A stretch of 64,000 nt of DNA from NCBI GenBank assembly GCA_023974075.1, contig CM043791.1, forward strand, positions 7,991,767 to 8,055,766. The letters run 5' to 3'. Position numbers and translations under genes: made by a program. Source of the stretch: Chaenocephalus aceratus (Eukaryota > Chordata > Actinopteri > Perciformes > Channichthyidae). This document shows, piece after piece, positions 1,079 to 28,949 of the stretch. The notes below the pieces were generated by a model. It did not search any database. It worked only from the letters and a program-made list of their open reading frames with translations, and had not been told where the DNA came from. The first letter of the stretch is position 1. Each line of letters opens with the position of its first letter.

Positions 1079-1894
1079 TAATTAATGCAGTCTTTCTGGA
1101 CTTTTAAAAAAAAAAAAATACTGCAAATGAAGAATATTTTAAATGTTCTGCACAGATAGACAGATAGTGCCTTAACTTACAGCAGTTGAAAAGATTTTTG
1201 AAAGGATAAATTCTTCATGGGCTTCAATGGCTCTGTAGTAAAGGGTGTTTTATGGTTGCTTGTATTATCCTCAGATAGTGGTTGTTTAAATAACTACTGA
1301 CATTTTATAAATATTGCAAAAAAGGGCTCCAAAAAGGCATATATATATATATATATATATTTATATAACCTGACCGGCTTAGCCAGTGTGTATTTTTTCA
1401 AGCACCACAAGATTCAGAGTTTATCAAGTACAATTCTGGGTCATTGATTGTGTCATTTCTACAAACACATACAGTAAAAAATGCCTGTTTTTGAAGCCTT
1501 AAAATGGTGCAGGAAAAGGACTTTACATTGGGTTATACTTAAAGACAGGACTATTCAGTTAAGAGAGGAGAGAAAATGAAAGACAATTGTTATAATGGGT
1601 GATTGTAACATTAATGACAGACATAATATGAGGTCCTTGGCACTCTAGAGGGGTCATGTTGTGATCATGGGGCATCAGCCTTACAGCATCAGGACAATAT
1701 CATATGGAGTCAGACACTGGAAGTGTGCTGGAGGCGTTGACTGAGACTGATGGAAGGATGAGGCTGATGAGACCGAAGAATCTGCGAGGAACAAACTAGC
1801 GGCTGAGGAATAGTTATATAGTAAAAGCCAGCAGCATCATCAAGAGGCCAACAAGAGTGACAGTGTGTCAGTGTGCAGTCTACCATCCTCTTAA
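1079..1894. other. No gene seen; short (AT)n
   Basis: Non-coding sequence with a short AT dinucleotide run near 1339-1361. Nothing else is recognised. Confidence 0.6.
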
Positions 1895-2490: not shown

Positions 2491-3032
2491 GGCGGAGTGA
2501 CCGCAGTGCAGAAACCGCTGTATAGTTTAAATCTCCTAACAATGTTGTCCATTTTAGACAGAGGCTTATTATATTTACAGCCCTTAATAACATTCATTTT
2601 CTGGCCTCAATATGTGTCTTGGCCGTTTTCGTTGTGATCGCTAAATTCCCCTTGTTTATAATAATCACCGGTCCTTCAGCAGGATACTGTCGTGATTCAA
2701 AGTGTGATTTTACCAAACGAGTGCTTTTGTTTGAAATCACTTCCGTGAGTTTCGCCCCGCCGCTCGCTCCAAGGACCATTTGACCATTTGTGACCATGGA
2801 TGTATAATAAGAACTGGATACAGCGTGGGAGGCGGGGCCTCATTCATTCCTATGAGAGTTGCTCATTGGCGCATGATGACAAAATGGCCCAACTTTTGAG
2901 AGAGCGAAACGTCACAGATTACCCAGCATGCCTGAGAAGCACCCGTATGTGCACTCATAGAGCATGCGCAACTTTAACCACGCCGCCCAAAAGGCTCGTT
3001 CACATTAAGCACGTGAATTTGCGTACACCTAA
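2491..3032. other. No gene seen
   Basis: Sequence between the tandem repeat and the Harbinger left end. No recognisable coding or repeat family. Confidence 0.5.
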
Positions 3033-3183
3033 CGGACCGTCCACACAGCGGCGTGCGTTGACGCTTGGCGGTGGGCGTGTCTGAAGCATGGGGAGTCAAC
3101 GTGACCAACAACCAATCACATGAATCTCCCGCCCCCGACATAGCAAAAAAGGAAAAGCCCGGTTCTTCTCCACTATTGCCAAA

Positions 3184-4731
3184 ATGGATGCCAGTTTTGT
3201 AGCAAGGGTAGCACGGGCAAGTGTAGTAGCAAGGGTGGCTTTAGTGTATGCAATGTCTCGCAGGAGGCCATGTAGTGTGCGTTGCTGTTGGGTACATCCG
3301 ATACTCAGAAAACGTCTGCAACGGGGGGAATACCACATTCTGGTCCAAGAGCTCCGCCTGGATGATGTACTGTTTCAGCAGTACTTCAGGATGAGCAAAG
3401 ACGTGTTCGACGAGTTGCTCGGAAAAGTGGGTCCACTGATTTCAAAGGCAGACACCCATATGCGTTTGTCAATCGGACCCGCCGAGCGACTCGCCATCTG
3501 CCTACGGTACGTTTTGTGTATTTCTACTTCTGTAATCTGACTCTGTATATAAAGAGAGAGAATGCATGCCATGGATGAATGAAGTCTGTGATTTAGTTCA
3601 GATGGATGACATTAATTAAGATAGCTAGGTAAATACAGTATTGCTCCCCTGTGTACATGGCATGTGTGTGTGCGTGCGTGTGTGTGTGTGTGTGTGTATG
3701 TGTGTCTGTGGGGGTCTGTGTGTGTGTGTCTGTGGGCTGTGTGTGTGGGGACATATACTTTTTTTTAATCATGTATATTATTTTTTTCTCAGGTACCTGG
3801 CAACCGGTGACTCATACAGGACCATAGCATTCAGCTATCGGGTCGGGCATGCAACAGTGGCTGTCATCGTCAAGGAGGTTGCGGGTGCCATCTGGACCGC
3901 CCTGGTCGAGGAGACCATGCCGGTACCACAGACCGAGGACTGGAGAGCCATCGCTGCTGGGTTCCAGGAGCGCTGGAACTTTCCGAATTGCGTTGGTGCC
4001 ATTGATGGGAAGCACGTGGTGATCCAGGCTCCGGGAAATTCTGGGTCCCTGTACTTCAACTACAAGTCCACCCACTCCTTGGTACTGCTGGCTGTCGTGG
4101 ATGCTGAGTACCTCTTCAGGGTAGTGGATGCCCAGTACCTCTTCAGGGTAGTGGATGTCGGAGGCTTTGGAAGGAGCAGCGACGGTGGGAGCCTGCGGAA
4201 TTCTGCTTTTGGAGAGAGCCTCCGAGATGGCAGTCTGCAGCTACCACCTGACACCGTCATCCCAGGAGCAGAGCGGCTGGGCCTTCTTCCCCATGTGTTT
4301 GCTGGAGATGAGGCTTTTCCGCTGCTGGACAACCTGCTGCGTCCGTTCCCTGGACGTCAGCTCACACGCGAAAAGAGGATGTTCAACTACCGCCTCAGCC
4401 GGGCCAGGTTGGTGGTTGAATGTGCGTTGGCACCCTCTCATCCCAGTGGAGAATGCTCAGGCGTGTCATCACCACCAGCCCGGAGGTAGCAGAGTTGTGT
4501 GTGAAGGCCACCTGTGTGTTGCACAACTTCCTCCGCAGGAAGACGATAGGAAGGACATCACGCACACCTATCGCAGAGTCCACGGATGAAGCTCCAGCTA
4601 CTCCAACCCTGCGTGATGCACCGAGGATGGGCTCCAACAATGCCACACGCAGATCCATCCAACTGCGGGACACCTTCTGCAGCTATTTCAATGAGGAGGG
4701 TGCAGTGCCATGGCAGCAGAACGTGGTGTAG
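3184..4731 (+). pseudogene. Harbinger (HARBI1-like) DDE transposase, decayed
   Basis: Two exons fit. Exon 1 is 3184-3506 (start ATG, N-terminal helical region with YFRMSKDVFDELL). A GT-AG intron at 3507-3792 contains (GT)n, and exon 2 runs from 3793. Exon 2 has the DDE_Tnp_4 landmarks: first Asp in GAIDGKHV, second Asp in VGGFGRSSDGG, and the C-terminal Glu in LSRARLVVE. Two lesions are visible. An in-frame 27-bp tandem duplication (about 4097-4150) repeats VDAEYLFRV just before the second Asp. A frameshift near 4425 moves the conserved tail (SSQWRMLRRVI..VKATCVLHNFLRRK) into another frame, which stays open to 4731. The family cuts and joins element ends in the nucleus, normally with the MADF/Myb partner encoded downstream on the other strand. 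This copy is presumably inactive. Confidence 0.88.
3661..3752. repeat. Imperfect (GT)n in transposase intron
   Basis: GT-rich run with interruptions inside the inferred Harbinger intron. Confidence 0.85.
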
Positions 4732-5189
4732 GGTCACCATGGCTCTTTTAAGAGCCTCCAAACCAAAAGCTCTTTTAAGAGCTACCCATATTTTCTTTAA
4801 AAAGCAAATATTCCATATGAGCCATTTTAAAAACAAACATTCCTAATAAACATGTTTCTTAAATTGATATTATGCATTGCTAACAACCTTTTTCCTTCAG
4901 CCCTGTTTTTACTGATAAACCACTCGTGATTTCAACAGGTTTTCACATGAACAATTATACAGAAGACAGCACATTATACATCGACATACATGAAGCTTCT
5001 GCATCTTCCGTATGTTGTAACTGACAAACGACATGAACAAGTGAAGACACAGTATGGCCATAACATACTTTAAATAACTTTTATTTATAATAATGTATTA
5101 TGTAATATTGTGAGTGAAGTGTGTGCAGTGATGAGTGTAAAACATGTAGTGTGGATCAGTATGGCTGTAAATAACAAAAAAGTGATGAA
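4732..5189. other. Harbinger intergenic spacer
   Basis: AT-rich non-coding sequence between the converging 3' ends of the two Harbinger genes; an AATAAA lies near 4845. Confidence 0.6.
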
Positions 5190-6339
5190 TCAGTCTTCCT
5201 CCTGCTCTGCTTCAAAAAATGCCTTATGAATGGCAAATTTCAGCCTTATCTTCTTTACCATGGACATCCTTCGCAATGAAGGCAAGAGGCCCCGGAGAAA
5301 CAACTCGTCCTCGTCCTCCTCCACCACTGGAGGAGGTTGAGATAGTGGCATGGAGATAACAGGAGCGATGGCTGACAGCAACCCTTTCTCAAAGGCGGAC
5401 ATCTCCCTTCCCCTTCTCCTTTTTCCCCGGCCCTCAACATTATCCTCCTCCTCTCCTGCCTGCCCTGCCTCCTCTCCTGTCTGCCCTGCCTCAGCTGGCT
5501 GGCTGAGTCTCACCAAGGCTTTCATCTAGCTGGCTTTGGCTCTCATCCTCTGGCACCTGGCTGGGGTCAGGAGTAGTACAGGGGGGTGGAGGCAGGGTTT
5601 GCCGGGGGATATTGCTGGACGTCTCACGGTCAATGAGAAATGGGGTTAAAAAACCCATCACTGCCGTGAAACGCCAGGGTTTATATCCCCCTGACGACCC
5701 TGCCTTCTCCCTAGCTTTCTCCTTCCGGAACCTGTCCCTCAGAGACTTCCACCTTGTCCTGCACAATTCCTCTAATGAAATAAAATAATAAAGTTAATTT
5801 GTTGAACTACTTGAAGAATTGACTAAATTATTCCTACATTAATGAAAAGCAAATCCCTTTATCACTGTCATTTGCATAAAAGGTTTTACATTCACACTTT
5901 ATATGATGAACATTTATGACATTAATGGCTATGGTGCTATTTTATGCTACATTCCATGCTGGCTAAATATACTGTCTATGCCTGCAAGCTGTCCATTCAA
6001 TGTTAAAATTAAGTACACTGGATATATCAAATCAAGTTTTATTTATATAGCACATTTATAAACATTTATAAACGATTTTTGGTCGAGCCAAAGTGCTGTA
6101 CATATAATAAAACTAGCCTACAGTAGAGACACGTTACAGCTAATACAACAGCACAGTTTGTTCAGAATATCATATATAATATAAACTCCCCAAACTGGCG
6201 AAAACCTACCAGTTCCACCCACTGTCTCTGCCACCTCCCTCCATGCCGGGCTCCTCCGGGTTGTATCCCGGTAAATGAACAGAGACTGATCATATAACAC
6301 CGGGTGATTCACTACCGCTATAATTAATTTCTCCTCCAT
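5190..6339 (-). pseudogene. MADF-domain protein of Harbinger, frameshifted
   Basis: Exon 1 (6339-6210) starts MEEKLIIAVVNHPVLYD and supplies the first half of a MADF domain. A GT-AG intron (6209-5772) follows. Exon 2 starts at 5771 and continues the domain (ELCRTRWKSLRDRFRKEK, then YKPWRFTAVMGFLTPF). After about 90 residues the frame stops at 5491, but the adjacent frame continues from about 5525 to 5190 with an acidic, Pro-rich tail and RGKRRRGRE basic stretch. The break sits in CAGCCAGCCAG, so a 4-bp slippage duplication would explain it. In Harbinger elements such proteins bind TIRs and help transposase enter the nucleus; that role is inferred from the family. Gene and transposase converge. 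Confidence 0.82.
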
Positions 6340-6441
6340 TTTTTGGAATATGAGGAAAAGACCTGCGGTGTGTCTCTCCGTCTCTCCCAGCATACACGCG
6401 GTTTGATTGGCTAGCACTGTACTGGCAGATTTGCATATAAA

Positions 6442-6493
6442 CGGGATTTCATTGGCTGACGCCTCGATGGAGGCGTCAGCCAATGAAATCCCG
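6442..6493. repeat. Perfect palindrome, 24+4+24
   Basis: The arm CGGGATTTCATTGGCTGACG(CCTC) is repeated as an exact reverse complement after 4 nt. It lies inside the Harbinger element, upstream of the MADF gene, and is separate from the element's TIRs. Confidence 0.95.
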
Positions 6494-6604
6494 CTCCATG
6501 TCGCTTCCCAAAATGCAGTTCGGCTAAAAGTGACGTCACCCCATTCAAAGTGAATGGGCAGAAGCGTTGGAAGCTTCAACGTACGCCGCTGTGTGGACGG
6601 GCCG

Positions 6605-7670
6605 TGACAGCACCGCGCGTTCATGACAGCATGGTACTGGATTTATATGAACGAGGCGGCAGTTAGCAGCTAGCGGCTAGCTAGTAAATTATGCTAAGTT
6701 ACACATCAATCGTTATGTACTTTTATATTACGCTGACATCAGGATCTAGTGATATCCAAGCAACAGAGCTTCATTTAGCATGATACTTGTGTGGGTTGTA
6801 CATGAAACCACTTGGTAATATATAAAAATGTATTATGTTGAAGCCTGTTATGATCAATTGTGAGTTAAAACTTTTATCTAAAAAGTAAAGCTGATGATGG
6901 ATTACTGTGGTGGAGTTAAAATAACAATAGCCTATTTCTTTTTGAAATGTAATGGAGTAAAAGGATAGTAACTGTGATTATTCATGTTAAGTAGCCCACA
7001 AGTAACTAAAACAATTGCAAGTGCAATAAGAAGCTACAGGAACGTTAATCTACGTCGGTAATATTAACTTTATTTAATACAATATTTACGGTACAAGATT
7101 GACATCATACAGCCCATGTAGTATAATATTTTACAAATGATGAATTACAGCAAACATGTGCAATATATCCATTATTACAGCTCCGTGGGCTGGCAGTAAG
7201 GCGATACGGTCCGTTGTTATTGTGCATCCATGGGAAAAGAGAAACTCATGTAGTGCTGAACACGTAACATGAACGTGCCGGGCAGCGCAGTCCCGTGGGT
7301 TAGATGCGCGTTCATAATGCCGAGGGAAATAACTCTCAGAATAACGTTATTAGCACATTTTTACAACTTGAGGAACGAATGTTTTTAATAAGGGCTATAC
7401 AAACGTTCATACTGGGTAGTTTATTTAGTTTAAAAAAAATTATCCAACGAGTTACAGACCACTCTTTCCCCATGTAAGTCAATGGGAAAAAGTGTTTCCG
7501 GGCCCAGCAACCTAAAGGAAGTGTAGTACCGCCGTTTGACCAGCACGAATATTCTCATCAGACTCCGGCGCACTTCCTGGGGGCTTGTTGGCAAAAAGCA
7601 AAAAGGCCTCTTAGACGCTCTTCCGTTTACGTGTTTAATAAAGAAAAACAATTGGACGGCAGATACACAG
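6605..7670. other. No gene seen
   Basis: Non-coding DNA between the Harbinger right end and the right long inverted repeat. No motif was recognised. Confidence 0.55.
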
Positions 7671-22848: not shown

Positions 22849-23400
22849 TTAAAGGTCCCATGGCATGGTCCTTTCTACTGATCATAATACCATTGTTGAG
22901 GGATATTACAATAGAAAAATACTGTGCAATTTTCCAAACTCAGATTGGTTTCTCATACATTATCTCTGTATAGTATGAGTTTTCACTCCCTGTGCTAAAC
23001 GGCTCGATGGAGTTCCTGCCCCCACCAGGCCCGGTTCTACGGGGGTGCATAAGGGTGCATTGCACCCTCAGTTGAGTCGTTATGCACCCTCATTTGAAAA
23101 ATGAAAAGTGAAAAAAAAAGAAAAGTGAAAAATATTACATATTATTACATATAATAATAATATAATAATAATAATAATAATATAATAGTAGTAATAAGAA
23201 GAAGAATATTAAGAAGAAGAATTTAGTTGAAATAAAATAAATTGTTCTTACAAAGCTATCAGTGTCAGTGATGGACATCAGAAAATGGTTAAAACAACCA
23301 GCCCTTATCGCCAGCAGTAACACTGCATCTACTGCAGGTAATAACAGTTCAGATCATGGGGACATTACGTTACCCGCGGCCACTGTCGTGGACAATAACG

Positions 23401-23465
23401 CCCGACTCGCCGGCTTTGCCCGCCTCGCCGGCTTTGCCCGCCTCGCCGGCTTTGCCCGCCTCGCC
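23401..23465. repeat. 18-bp minisatellite
   Basis: About 3.5 copies of CGCCTCGCCGGCTTTGCC. It encodes ALPASP in the likely authentic frame and RLAGFA in another. Confidence 0.9.
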
Positions 23466-23666
23466 CACAGAGGCAGAGCAGCCGCAGCCGTCTTTGTTGC
23501 CCCAAACACCGCCACCCCTCGGCCCGCAAGTGCCAGAGGACCTCGGCAAAACAGAGCCTGCCCAGGTATATTTAAAAAAGTGCCCAACTCGCCTGTAGGC
23601 TACTCATTTTGCAGCTCATAGTTTCAAAACAGAGATTGGCTGGAATATTCATGTAAAAAAGATGCC

Positions 23667-25333
23667 TTCTTTTTTTTTTATACTTTTTTTATTGAGTCAG
23701 GCACAATGAGTTTACATTTATACAGTCAATATTTTTATTTATTTTTCCCCTTTCCCTCCCTCCCGGTCCTAGCTAGTAAAATAAATAACTAACTAAATAA
23801 ATAAGATAGATACCTGTATAGGTTAAAAGTAAAGTAATATAGAAGATAATATTAAAAGAAAATGTATAGATAAGGGAATAAAGAATAGTAACAGTAATAC
23901 TTGTACCCATATACTCATATGTATACCCACATGTTCACATGCACATACATACACGTACCTACCTACATACATACATGTATACAAAGACAGAACAAATAAA
24001 TAAAAATAAATAAAATAAAAAAAAAATTAATATAAAAAGAGACACAAGGAGAAAAAACAAAAAAAACATACATTCGTAGTTCCCCCTCTTTCTCCTTAAT
24101 GTAGTGTCTTAAGTTCAGCTATGTAGGCTATCATAAGAGCCCCAGACAGATTCAAATAGTTTTGAGGAGCCCCTCAGGTTATATTTAATCTTCTCCAAGT
24201 TCAGGTACAACATTAGATCTTTAAGCCATTGAGATGCTTTAGGTGGTATAGAAGATTTCCATTCTAGGAGTATTCTTCTTCGTGCTAAAAGAGATGCAAA
24301 GGCTATACTGTCCTTAGTTTTCCTCTTCAACATTCGGTGGCCAGGTATTACTCCAAAAATGGCAGTTTCTGCACATGGTGTCAATACCACGTCCAAGGCC
24401 TCAGTAAGGTGTTTGAAAATGCTTGTCCAGTATCCTTGTAGGCGAGGACAAGACCAAAACATATGAGTCATGTTTGCTGGTGACATGTGGCATCTGTTAC
24501 AGGTGTCCGTAACATTTGGATATATTTTGGAGAGTTTAGAGTTGGTGTAATAGATACGGTGGACAACTTTTAGTTGTATAAGATTGAGCCTGGCACAGGA
24601 CGTACTATTGTTCACTCTCGCTAATGCGCCATCCCAGACCTCATCATCTATGGCTTGGATTAGTTCCTCTTCCCAATGTTGTTTGATTTTACCAAGCGAT
24701 GTTTCTGTGAGACGGGAGACGGAATTGTAAATTCTTGAAATCAGACCTTTTTCGATTGTTAGAGTGTCCAGAATTGAGTCAATTATTGAGTCCGGAGGGA
24801 TATTGGGGAATGAAGGGTTGTTTAGTTTAACCCAGTTTCGGACCTGGAAGTAGCGAAATAGATGAGTGCTTGGAAGGCAACATTTGTCAGAGAGTTGGCT
24901 AAAGCTGCCGAAAACATTGTTAATGTAAAGGTCCCTTACTCTTATAAGACCTACTCTCTGCCACATAGAGAAGGCCCCATCAGTGTAAGGGGGGAGAAAG
25001 AGATGGTTGTTGCTAATGGGACTATGTATAGAGGAACCACAGAGTCCATGAGCCTTTCTGAATTGGGACCAGATTCTTAGGGTGGAAACAACAATCGGGT
25101 TATTCGAATATTGACTTGGCCGGCTGGGTAATTTAGATGTAAGCAAAGCCAAGAGTGAGGTATTAGGACAGGATTTGGCTTCAAGCTCACACCAACTCAA
25201 TGTTGGTTCCTTAGTCCATAGAATTATTTTGTGGATATTGGCTACCCAATAGTAGTCTTATGTTTGGAAGCGCTAATCCTCCTGTAGATCTATGCCTTTG
25301 TAAAAGCTCTTTCCTAATTCTAGGTCTAGGTCT
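23667..25333 (-). mobile_element. L1/Tx1-type LINE, 5'-truncated, antisense
   Basis: AAAAAGATGCC is repeated directly on both sides (23656-23666, 25334-25344), an 11-bp target duplication. The A-rich 3' tail is at the left (reads as poly-T on +), so the element lies on the minus strand. It holds the ORF2 C-terminal part and a 3' UTR whose near copy occurs at 48778-49096. Confidence 0.93.
24115..25200 (-). pseudogene. L1-type ORF2, C-terminal 361 codons
   Basis: A long open frame without internal stops covers the region downstream of the reverse transcriptase. It has W-rich segments (SNNPIVVSTLRIWSQFRKAH, GLISRIYNSVSR), LIQLKVVHRIYYT, and the cysteine-rich knuckle CNRCHMSPANMTHMFWSC (C-x2-C-x8-H-x4-C). 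That knuckle is typical of the L1/Tx1 ORF2 C-terminus. Upstream, RRSTGGLALPNIRL-type sequence is readable in another frame up to 25333, then the element ends. It is 5'-truncated and cannot retrotranspose alone. The intact frame suggests a young insertion. Confidence 0.85.
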
Positions 25334-25449
25334 AAAAAGATGCCATCTTCTGCTATGCATGTAGATATTTCGGTTCAAGTAAGTCAGATGCCTTCACCAC
25401 AACTGGCTACAACAACTGGCGCCATGCTCTTATAGGCTACGTGATAAGG

Positions 25450-25690
25450 GACTGGGAAGGCATGAATCAAGCAAAGAGCACATAGATCCATAGATCTCTT
25501 CATTTTGCTCTCAAAGTGCACCAGATTGATGCTTTTAACTTCAATATTTAAAATAAAATCTTCCCGGGGGAGCGTGCCCCCGGACCTCCCTAGAGGAGGT
25601 GAGGACCCTCCTAGAGGAGATGAGGACCCCCTAGACGGTGTTAGGTCCACTCCCCACTTATAAAAATAGCACTTTACCACTGCACCCTCT
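25450..25690 (+). repeat. Shared hAT-associated module
   Basis: Same module as 12112-12310 and 63300-63480 (CTCAAAGTGCACCAGATTGA ... CTTCCCGGGGGAGC). Here it lies inside the 3' part of the TTF-type hAT, its likely source family. Confidence 0.75.
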
Positions 25691-25759
25691 CTAATCTCAG
25701 ATGCACCCTGAGTAATTTTGTTCTGGAACCGGGCCTGGCTCCCACCCTCCTGTGCGTCC

Positions 25760-25810
25760 AGTGTGCTCCGATTGGTCAGCTCTGCCACTCTGTTCTGATT
25801 AGTCAACCAC
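25760..25810. promoter_or_regulatory. Paired inverted CCAAT boxes upstream of P2X7-like gene
   Basis: CCGATTGGTCAGC and CTGATTAGTCAACC are two inverted CCAAT-type boxes about 30 bp apart, some 150-190 bp upstream of the P2X7-like start. The same paired arrangement recurs in the TTAA MITEs at 17430, 39870, 42560 and 61150. A promoter role is inferred. Confidence 0.4.
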
Positions 25811-25948
25811 CAGAGAGGCTCTGCCCCTGTTGACATCTGCCGTAAAGTGGTTTAGCGGGTACTTAGCAACATAGCAATACTAGATTTGAGAATCGATAGA
25901 TAGATAGAGAGTTATATAGATAAATAGATAGCTTACATATAGCATACA

Positions 25949-26763
25949 ATGGCGTATGGAGCATACAATTTCGAACCTCCGTTCGATCCTAGAATAGACC
26001 AAATCGCGAGTCTTGCCTCGCCGTTCACTAGAGCAGACCAAACAGTGTCATTGTGGTACGTTTTTATCTAGTATATGTCTTACATTTCAGATGTCATCAG
26101 ATGTACCTACAACTGTTGTTATTTAGGTGCCGTTGTGGAAACTGCGCTTTGATGCCAAGTGACGGAGAAAACGTGTGCTGCAATAGCATAAGAAAGGTAG
26201 CCTAGCTTAGTTTCATTATGTCGGCAGCTAGCTGAAAACACCAACAGTAGCACACATATACCAAGATATACAGCATACATATTTTTCAAGTCAATAGACT
26301 ATATATGTACTTTTATTACTTCTTTAGTAATTGAATGTTTATTTTGTAAACCTTTCCCATAGTTGGTTTAATTGCTAAACGTGTTTTGTAACACATCTTA
26401 CCTTCATAGGTTAAATGCATGGTTGACCACCCAGGACTAGAGCCTAACTGCTTGAACCCATACACCCTGCAGAATCTCCACAATATTTATAAATACAGTT
26501 TCGGACCTTTGACAAATACAACGGAAGAAGAGTAAGTTATTGTTACTGTACCTGTAATAAACTACTACTGTTTGATGACAAATCAAATCATGGTTTGCTA
26601 TATATGAATGATATGTTATATGTATATTTATACACTGTACATCATCCATTCCTCTCCTGATAGGCGTTTTCGATATCTTGCGTATCGCAGCTTTGTAAGC
26701 TGGTGCTGGGGATATTTAGGGCGAGGCATCAGAGTGGTGATTCCGTCGTGTGTTGTGCAATGA
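25949..26763 (+). CDS. P2X7 cytoplasmic 'ballast'-domain-like protein, four exons, intact
   Basis: Exons are 25949-26055, 26127-26196, 26410-26531 and 26664-26763, all with GT-AG borders and matching phases. They give 399 nt, 132 residues, no internal stop. Motifs in order: an N-terminal leader MAYGAYNFEPPFDPRID; WCRCGNCALMP at residues ~36-46 and VCC near 53, cysteines arranged as in the zinc-binding P2X7 C-terminal domain; CMVDHPGLEPNCLNP (~62-76); RFRYLAYRSFVSWCWG (~101-116); and terminal IRVVIPSCVVQ. In P2X7 receptors this domain hangs under the channel and binds zinc and guanine nucleotides. Here there is no channel: no transmembrane segments or P2X ectodomain. It sits inside a TTAA-flanked element, its stop 8 nt from the opposing THAP exon. 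It looks like a standalone cargo or accessory gene. Domain identity is by motif reading; function unknown. Confidence 0.8.
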
Positions 26764-26771
26764 ATACTTAC

Positions 26772-27025
26772 AGGTTGTGTACCCGAATCTTCCGCTGGCC
26801 CAAACAAAGTAGGAACAGCATCGTCCTCCAATATCAGCTTTGCAAGTCCGAAGCTAAACATTGTTAGTTTTTAAAGCTTTGTTCCACAACAGTACCGGCT
26901 GGTAAATCAGCTGGAACAGTGTTAAAAAGGAATGTCAACCACTGACTTCGTCGTGGTTCTGCCTTCGGTACTGCAAACATTGTGGATTTCTCCACACAAG
27001 ACAGGCAACAGACCCTCCGCGACAT
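26772..27025 (-). pseudogene. THAP-domain exon, damaged
   Basis: Starts MSRRVCCLSCVEKSTMFAVP, giving the first Cys pair of the C2CH zinc finger, then RRSQWLTFLFNTVPADLPAG with the conserved Trp and Pro. A stop and frameshift follow (around 26868). The next frame gives MFSFGLAKLILEDDAVPTLF, the C-terminal AVPTLF signature of THAP domains. The exon ends at a good donor (CAACCT then GTAAGT, 26772/26771). The segment expected to hold the second Cys and the His is missing. Kolobok transposases commonly begin with a THAP DNA-binding domain, so this is read as the first coding exon of a lost transposase. No catalytic exons remain. Confidence 0.75.
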
Positions 27026-27315
27026 GACTGGATAGAGCTTTGAAAAGAAGCAGGTTTTACGACACTTAATATGGTCGGCTGGCAGAGGAAGTGACGTCAC
27101 GCGGTGCAGCTACGTCACGCGGGGCAGAAGTAAACAATGGAAACTGAGAAATCTCCAACGAGGCTTTTGGGGGAGGTTTTTCTGTGTTAGAGTTTTACTC
27201 CCTACAGGGTGTACTTTGAGGGGTTTTGACTTTGCAGACTGTTTACATGCATGGACACCTTCATAACACACAAGGAGACGGGTAATAACGGAAAAGCATG
27301 CAATGGGCCCTTTAA

Positions 27316-28326: not shown

Positions 28327-28949
28327 AGGCCCTGACACACCAAGCAGTCACCAGAGGACTAGCCGACGCTGAAGTCGGCTGTTGCCTGGCCGTGTTCTCC
28401 TGCGTTTTGGCCATGTGTCGCACGGGAACACACCGCACCGACTTCAGTGCGTGAGTGGCAATAACTCTCCTTACCAGCAGGCGGCGGTAGTGTGTATTCG
28501 TCATTCAAAAGAGGCAAACCGGACAAGACAGAGAAGAAGAAGAGTATCTTTTCTCCGTAATATCATACAGAGCTGGCCTCTCCTGGATCAAGGTGATGAG
28601 CAGGTCTTCGTTTGCATCATTCCAGATCGCCATGATGAGATGAAAATGAATAGCAGTCTGTGTGTGCCTTCTTAAATCGTTTGTTTACGTCCCTCACTTC
28701 CGCTTCGCTTCTCATGCACTGATTCGCTAGCTGAACAGCCAATCAGAGTGATTATTTGGTCCGACTGCCAGACCCGATGCATGGCCGATTCAACATGTTG
28801 AATCGGCCATGCATCGGGTCTGGCAGTCCAAATAAGGCGTGTCTCACGGTCGACGGTGCGGGACACACCAACCTGACTACGGCGCCGCGAATGCCCGACA
28901 GCCTCTGACGGCCTCTGACTCCCAAAATCGGGTTGGTGTGTCAGGGCCT
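28327..28949. mobile_element. Harbinger-type MITE with TTA duplication
   Basis: The left end is AGGCCCTGACACACCAA, with its reverse complement at the right end, and TTA on both sides (28324-28326, 28950-28952). It is 623 bp with no coding capacity. A 62-bp palindrome lies in its right half. Confidence 0.88.
28765..28826. repeat. Perfect palindrome, 31+0+31
   Basis: The arm CTGCCAGACCCGATGCATGG... runs to CAACA, then TGTTG begins its exact reverse complement with no spacer. Weaker complementarity extends a further ~10 bp on each side. Confidence 0.97.

Follow-up and report, generated by a model that had tools for sequence, protein, structure and literature searches.

A TTAA-flanked, internally deleted element of Chaenocephalus aceratus carries a truncated P2X7 ballast-like gene, very probably the KolX gene of a Kolobok transposon

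The window, i.e., the whole 64,000-nt stretch of Chaenocephalus aceratus DNA analyzed here, contains at 25949-26763 a four-exon gene (hereafter KolX), placed within a TTAA-flanked element. The left part of this element is split by a nested hAT-like insertion, and a relic of a transposase exon is found between the gene and the right end (Table 1). The four exons, joined at GT-AG borders and in compatible phases, give 399 nt, coding for 132 residues and a stop codon, as had been recognized in a first-pass annotation of the window.

Table 1. Features of the Kolobok-type element and of the insertion nested in it (window coordinates)
Feature	Position	Strand	Remarks
TTAA target site, left	22849-22852		Scan of TTAA-anchored ends
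Kolobok element	22853-27311		Flanked by TTAA
Left terminal inverted repeat	22853-22867	+	AGGTCCCATGGCATG
Left part of Kolobok element	22853-23025	+	98.3-99.4% identity, 11/11 sisters
8-bp duplication, left	23018-23025		GCCCCCAC; flanks hAT-like element; one mismatch between the two duplicates
hAT-like element, nested	23026-25737		2,712 nt; ends CAGGCCCGGTT.../...CCGGGCCTG
LINE-type frame inside hAT-like element	24115-25200	-	zf-RVT 22.6 bits, below curated cut-off of 27.5
8-bp duplication, right	25738-25745		GCTCCCAC; flanks hAT-like element
KolX exon 1	25949-26055	+	
KolX exon 2	26127-26196	+	Holds CRCGNC..VCC cysteines
KolX exon 3	26410-26531	+	33-nt in-frame deletion at 26410/26411 vs. sisters
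Intron 3 deletion	26619/26620		79 nt, vs. sister C15
KolX exon 4, truncated	26664-26763	+	KolX sequence only at 26664-26758
Large internal deletion junction	26758/26759		About 4.2 kb, vs. sister C15
Transposase exon 1 relic	26772-26986	-	THAP domain, AVPTLF box; frameshifted, internal loss
Right terminal inverted repeat	27297-27311	-	AGGGCCCATTGCATG on - strand
TTAA target site, right	27312-27315		Scan of TTAA-anchored ends

In a profile search, the window product matched PF20478 (P2RX7_C) with an E-value of 9.9e-14 and a score of 52.1 bits (curated cut-off, 23.5) over profile positions 75-174, and by sequence it also matched P2X7 chains in the PDB at 1.2e-4, which bears out the earlier description of a gene for the P2X7 ballast domain without any channel. 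The KolX protein of the sister copy C15 (see below) reached 2.6e-17, over positions 75-192 of the 192-position profile. The alignment with the PDB chains shows that each of the seven zinc cysteines of human P2X7 has its counterpart: window residues C37, C39, C42, C53, C54, C62, and C129 align with human C477, C479, C482, C498, C499, C506, and C572, respectively. As these positions are retained, zinc binding by the window product is plausible; nucleotide binding, which the first-pass annotation had proposed alongside it, is a weak prediction for this copy because all of the domain past human position C572 has been lost.

The search for relatives, which admitted short proteins only, returned 55 of them, 52 with fish names and 41 named P2X purinoceptor 7 or 7-like; the best one, of 167 residues, is 64% identical to the window protein. 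This suggests that some short fish proteins called "P2X purinoceptor 7" or "7-like" may be transposon genes and not receptors; our literature search found no paper joining "P2X purinoceptor 7-like" with a transposon. When the window protein was aligned with 29 of the 55 relatives (30 rows), most cysteines and the FVSWCWG stretch turned out to be invariant or nearly so. An 11-residue stretch present in all 29 relatives is absent from the window protein, which has also lost a tail of 19-21 residues that is conserved in 27 of the 29 (P0014 ends early and P0025 differs).

The ends of the element were found by scanning TTAA-anchored ends around the gene. AGGTCCCATGGCATG and AGGGCCCATTGCATG are alike at 13 of 15 positions, and the termini AGG...CCT correspond to 5'-RR / YY-3'. 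Of the 6,868 combinations of one TTAA site to the left of the gene with one to its right, this pair had the second-best end match, the first being a 22.7-kb pair further out, and against the background of 34,924 TTAA pairs in the window three pairs, including that of the element (11), scored at least 11, with a best score of 12. The element ends were not among the longest 25 of the 61 inverted-repeat pairs listed for the window. Within the window, the end match alone is only suggestive of the boundaries, and the ends are established because both end types recur genome-wide: a search of 1.06 Gb in 3,032 contigs, with patterns made up of TTAA and one of the two end types, gave 91 exact matches, compared with none for the reversed-pattern control. 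The reading of the locus as a TTAA-flanked element with matching ends was thereby upheld. Homology among the copies stops at the TTAA, and the 100-nt flanks outside it match only within two duplicate pairs. The element without the hAT-like insertion is about 1.74 kb long.

For the comparison of copies, 15 convergent left/right pairs, the window included, were chosen by eye from the 91 matches, and 12 of them were analyzed (the pairs of C97 and C531 and the 42-kb pair of C22 were omitted); this pair-based analysis leaves out the other 61 matches. The 12 pairs represent 10 distinct insertions, since the flanks of C22 and C256, and likewise those of C280 and C747, are identical, these two sets probably being haplotype or assembly duplicates. 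Together with repeated patterns seen on C1102 and C23 (two places each), they suggest that haplotype or segmental duplicates in the assembly inflate the copy counts.

The window copy and the 11 sister pairs all have TTAA at either end, and KolX sequence was found between the ends of all 12 analyzed pairs. Three of them (C15, C20, and C296) keep the whole 170-aa KolX frame open and every GT-AG site in place. In four others (C1, C22, C256, and C5), all KolX exons align at full length and the frame is cut by an early stop, accompanied in three of the four by a broken splice site, and in the remaining five (C6, C90, C280, C747, and the window) a KolX exon is interrupted, shortened, or missing. KolX exon 4 has 69 matches in the genome with up to three mismatches and 36 with at most one (control, 0), counts that include some assembly duplicates. 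A second variant of this exon, which ends with GGGGCTTTTT instead of GGGGATATTT and makes up much of the matches with two or three mismatches, suggests that the genome contains a further KolX subfamily.

In the sisters, KolX runs inward from the left end, and a gene for a THAP transposase, located on the opposite strand and convergent to KolX, runs inward from the right end. Its THAP exon was identified in 11 of the 12 copies, a number that includes the window relic and the exon of C6, which contains a stop; C1 gave no THAP match. The exon of C15 matched the Pfam THAP model at 5.9e-10 and has an AVPTLF box, and a THAP domain with an AVPTIF box is described for Kolobok transposases in the available part of PMC6004289. 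A further exon, with a D...DxxH motif (VTDRH...DVWHFEKG), was found in seven of the 12 copies (in C5 in two pieces) and not matched in the other five; no Pfam DDE model matched it above the cut-off (Mutator-like, E 0.14). In C15, an open frame on the minus strand (1530-1246 of the element), which resembles the final portion of the convergent transposase gene, lies antisense to a portion of KolX exon 4 (1178-1358, plus strand), so that KolX and the transposase gene may have a tail-to-tail overlap.

One could suppose that a host ballast gene is merely a passenger of an unrelated TTAA transposon, i.e., piggyBac or a MITE. According to the available part of the paper by Kojima and Bao (2022; PMC9587614), the TTAA target is common to Kolobok and piggyBac, and a few piggyBac families have a KolX-like protein in which most of the cysteines are lacking. 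The same source, however, gives 5'-RR and YY-3' termini as the distinction of Kolobok from piggyBac. The AG...CT (RR/YY) ends of this element, the THAP exon found in 11 of the 12 copies, and the presence of KolX in all 12, as for a core gene, speak against a piggyBac passenger and make any origin of this kind extremely improbable.

Lesions of the window copy were called against C15, C1, C20, and C296 and against all copies. Two of them affect the coding sequence: in exon 3, close to its start, 33 nt are missing in frame, and exon 4 is without 86 of the 181 coding nt that it has in the sisters (95 being retained). The second one results from the large internal deletion, at whose junction KolX exon 4 runs directly into sequence on the intron side of transposase exon 1; the deletion took the end of exon 4 and nearly all of the transposase gene, and the final two codons (Q and stop) are completed with sequence beside that gene. 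The DxxH exon is also lost, and the THAP relic, with an X at the frameshift, matched Pfam with an E-value of 0.003, below the cut-off. Thus, although the frame, the domain match, and the TTAA ends of the first-pass annotation stood, its description of the gene as intact and free of lesions did not, because of these two coding lesions against the sisters; the same losses are seen against the relatives. With up to three mismatches allowed, the junction of the 33-nt deletion and that at 26758/26759 each have one match in the genome, i.e., no second copy, and there is therefore no sign that the truncated form has multiplied.

The hAT-like element is named so on the basis of its ends and of the length of the flanking duplication. 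Its insertion site is uninterrupted in all 11 sisters as judged by blastn positions, and in 10 of the 11 by string search (the site was not found in C5). The profile search with pieces of this element revealed no transposase, and a weak zinc-finger match (E 0.005) was below the cut-off.

Other features were observed elsewhere in the window. A Harbinger-like element at 3032-6605 has 35-nt terminal inverted repeats and a MADF match (6.3e-6), and a DDE_Tnp_4 frame (3641-4489, 3.2e-19) lies inside it. About 270 nt downstream of this frame, and still within the Harbinger-like element, there is a match to the histone 3'-UTR stem-loop (4763-4807; Rfam RF00032, 37.3 bits vs. a gathering score of 34), where the DNA contains two tandem stem-loop-like hairpins. 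The Harbinger-like transposase mRNA could have a 3' end of the histone type. At 28763-28828, two 33-nt arms form a perfect inverted repeat with zero spacer.

An open frame, good splice sites, and seven retained cysteine positions would also suit a 132-aa product that is itself functional, e.g., a dominant-negative KolX or an element-encoded repressor keeping the seven zinc cysteines. AlphaFold gave a poor, low-confidence model of the window protein (pLDDT 47.7, pTM 0.33, from the 30-row alignment), with which the fold search found no match in the PDB at E <= 0.001; as the model is too poor to be reliable, this empty search is weak evidence only. The model of the full-length relative P0001 reached a pLDDT of 78.5, and its nine best PDB matches were P2X7, six of them at E <= 0.001, with a match at 2.1e-4. 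A likeness to the ballast fold was recovered with the relative; the contrast with the window protein is suggestive only, the two alignments being of equal depth but not made of identical rows. Considering also that the truncated form has not multiplied, a functional role of the 132-aa product is very unlikely.

Codon-position counts were made for 10 copies (C256 and C747 dropped as duplicates) and comprised substitutions only, without indels. Differences from the majority base were found at 15 of 1,594 sites of codon position 1, 16 of 1,595 of position 2, and 17 of 1,585 of position 3, as well as at 46 of 4,495 sites in introns and 24 of 3,339 in the upstream part, i.e., introns and all three codon positions alike have diverged by about 1%. 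The coding substitutions, of which the window copy has one, were 10 synonymous, 35 nonsynonymous, and three stops (21, 73, and 6%, against 25, 70, and 5% expected without selection). They look neutral, and the copies appear to lie about 1% from a common form and to drift freely. The first-pass annotation had itself named a lack of purifying selection among copies as an argument against its proposal; none was detected, the neutral-looking codon-position pattern speaks against the frame having been kept by selection, and the open frame is no sign of it. The recent origin of the copy explains why the window frame is open. This pattern does not argue against KolX being under selection in active elements: most cysteines and the FVSWCWG stretch vary little or not at all among the 30 aligned proteins.

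The same counts concern another explanation, in which a domesticated nanor-like host gene lies by chance between transposon ends. Nanor-like single-domain genes do exist in fish (available part of PMC7016195), and the open frame would agree with such a gene. This idea is contradicted by the copy number (69 exon-4 matches with up to three mismatches, control 0), by the neutral-looking divergence, and by the window copy being shorter than its own sisters, with lesions unique in the genome, so that it retains hardly any probability.

The locus is therefore almost certainly to be read as the KolX accessory gene of a Kol0-type Kolobok, in a young, internally deleted, non-autonomous copy, on the grounds of the TTAA sites, the RR/YY termini, the THAP domain, the DxxH motif, and KolX, with no direct match to a named Kolobok transposase. 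The element in the window is apparently a dead, non-autonomous derivative of a young Kol0-type family and an ordinary representative of a known type. Full elements would move by cut-and-paste with their own THAP transposase, and KolX would, as a best guess, be a zinc-stabilised accessory protein of transposition. The large deletion is of the kind that incomplete gap repair after excision would leave. The window copy would yield no working KolX, and mobilization of its ends in trans is, in principle, still conceivable.

P-element transposase requires GTP. The P2X7 ballast domain has both GTP/GDP and zinc sites (as described in the available part of PMC9859053). KolX might assist a P-element-like THAP transposase in a manner that depends on guanine nucleotides or zinc, a role that we consider unlikely. 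If it were true, the P2X7 tail would be a recycled transposition cofactor, and the young family of this genome, with its several full-length KolX frames, would be a test system.

The available part of the paper by Kojima and Bao (2022; PMC9587614), in which Rump et al. (2020) are cited, describes the Kol0 layout as a transposase plus KolX, assigns the ballast fold to KolX, derives the P2X7 ballast from KolX, and proposes nanor and nanor-like fish genes to be domesticated KolX. The suggestion of the first-pass annotation that a gene carried by a TTAA transposon is a plausible source of the P2X7 tail therefore stands, although not as a new route, having been in print since 2022. The young multi-copy family gives direct sequence support for this published origin of the P2X7 ballast. 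Compared with the Kol0 elements and their KolX, as presented in the available part of PMC9587614, the family shares the TTAA sites, the RR/YY termini, the THAP exons (in the sisters), a separate ballast protein, and the conserved cysteines, whereas the window copy is without the transposase body and the KolX C-terminus. Nanor and nanor-like proteins (available part of PMC7016195) are similar in being short and made up of the ballast domain plus a short N-terminal region, but they are proposed to be domesticated, while here a transposon gene is present in many copies, among which no selection is detectable. Finally, the ballast domain of P2X7 itself (PF20478; PDB 6u9v and 9e3m) is matched in sequence and in all seven zinc-cysteine positions; the window protein differs from it in having no channel and in stopping just past the position of human C572, the absent C-terminal part of the domain including a portion of the guanine-nucleotide region (R574, R578, and K583, as given in the available part of PMC7016195).
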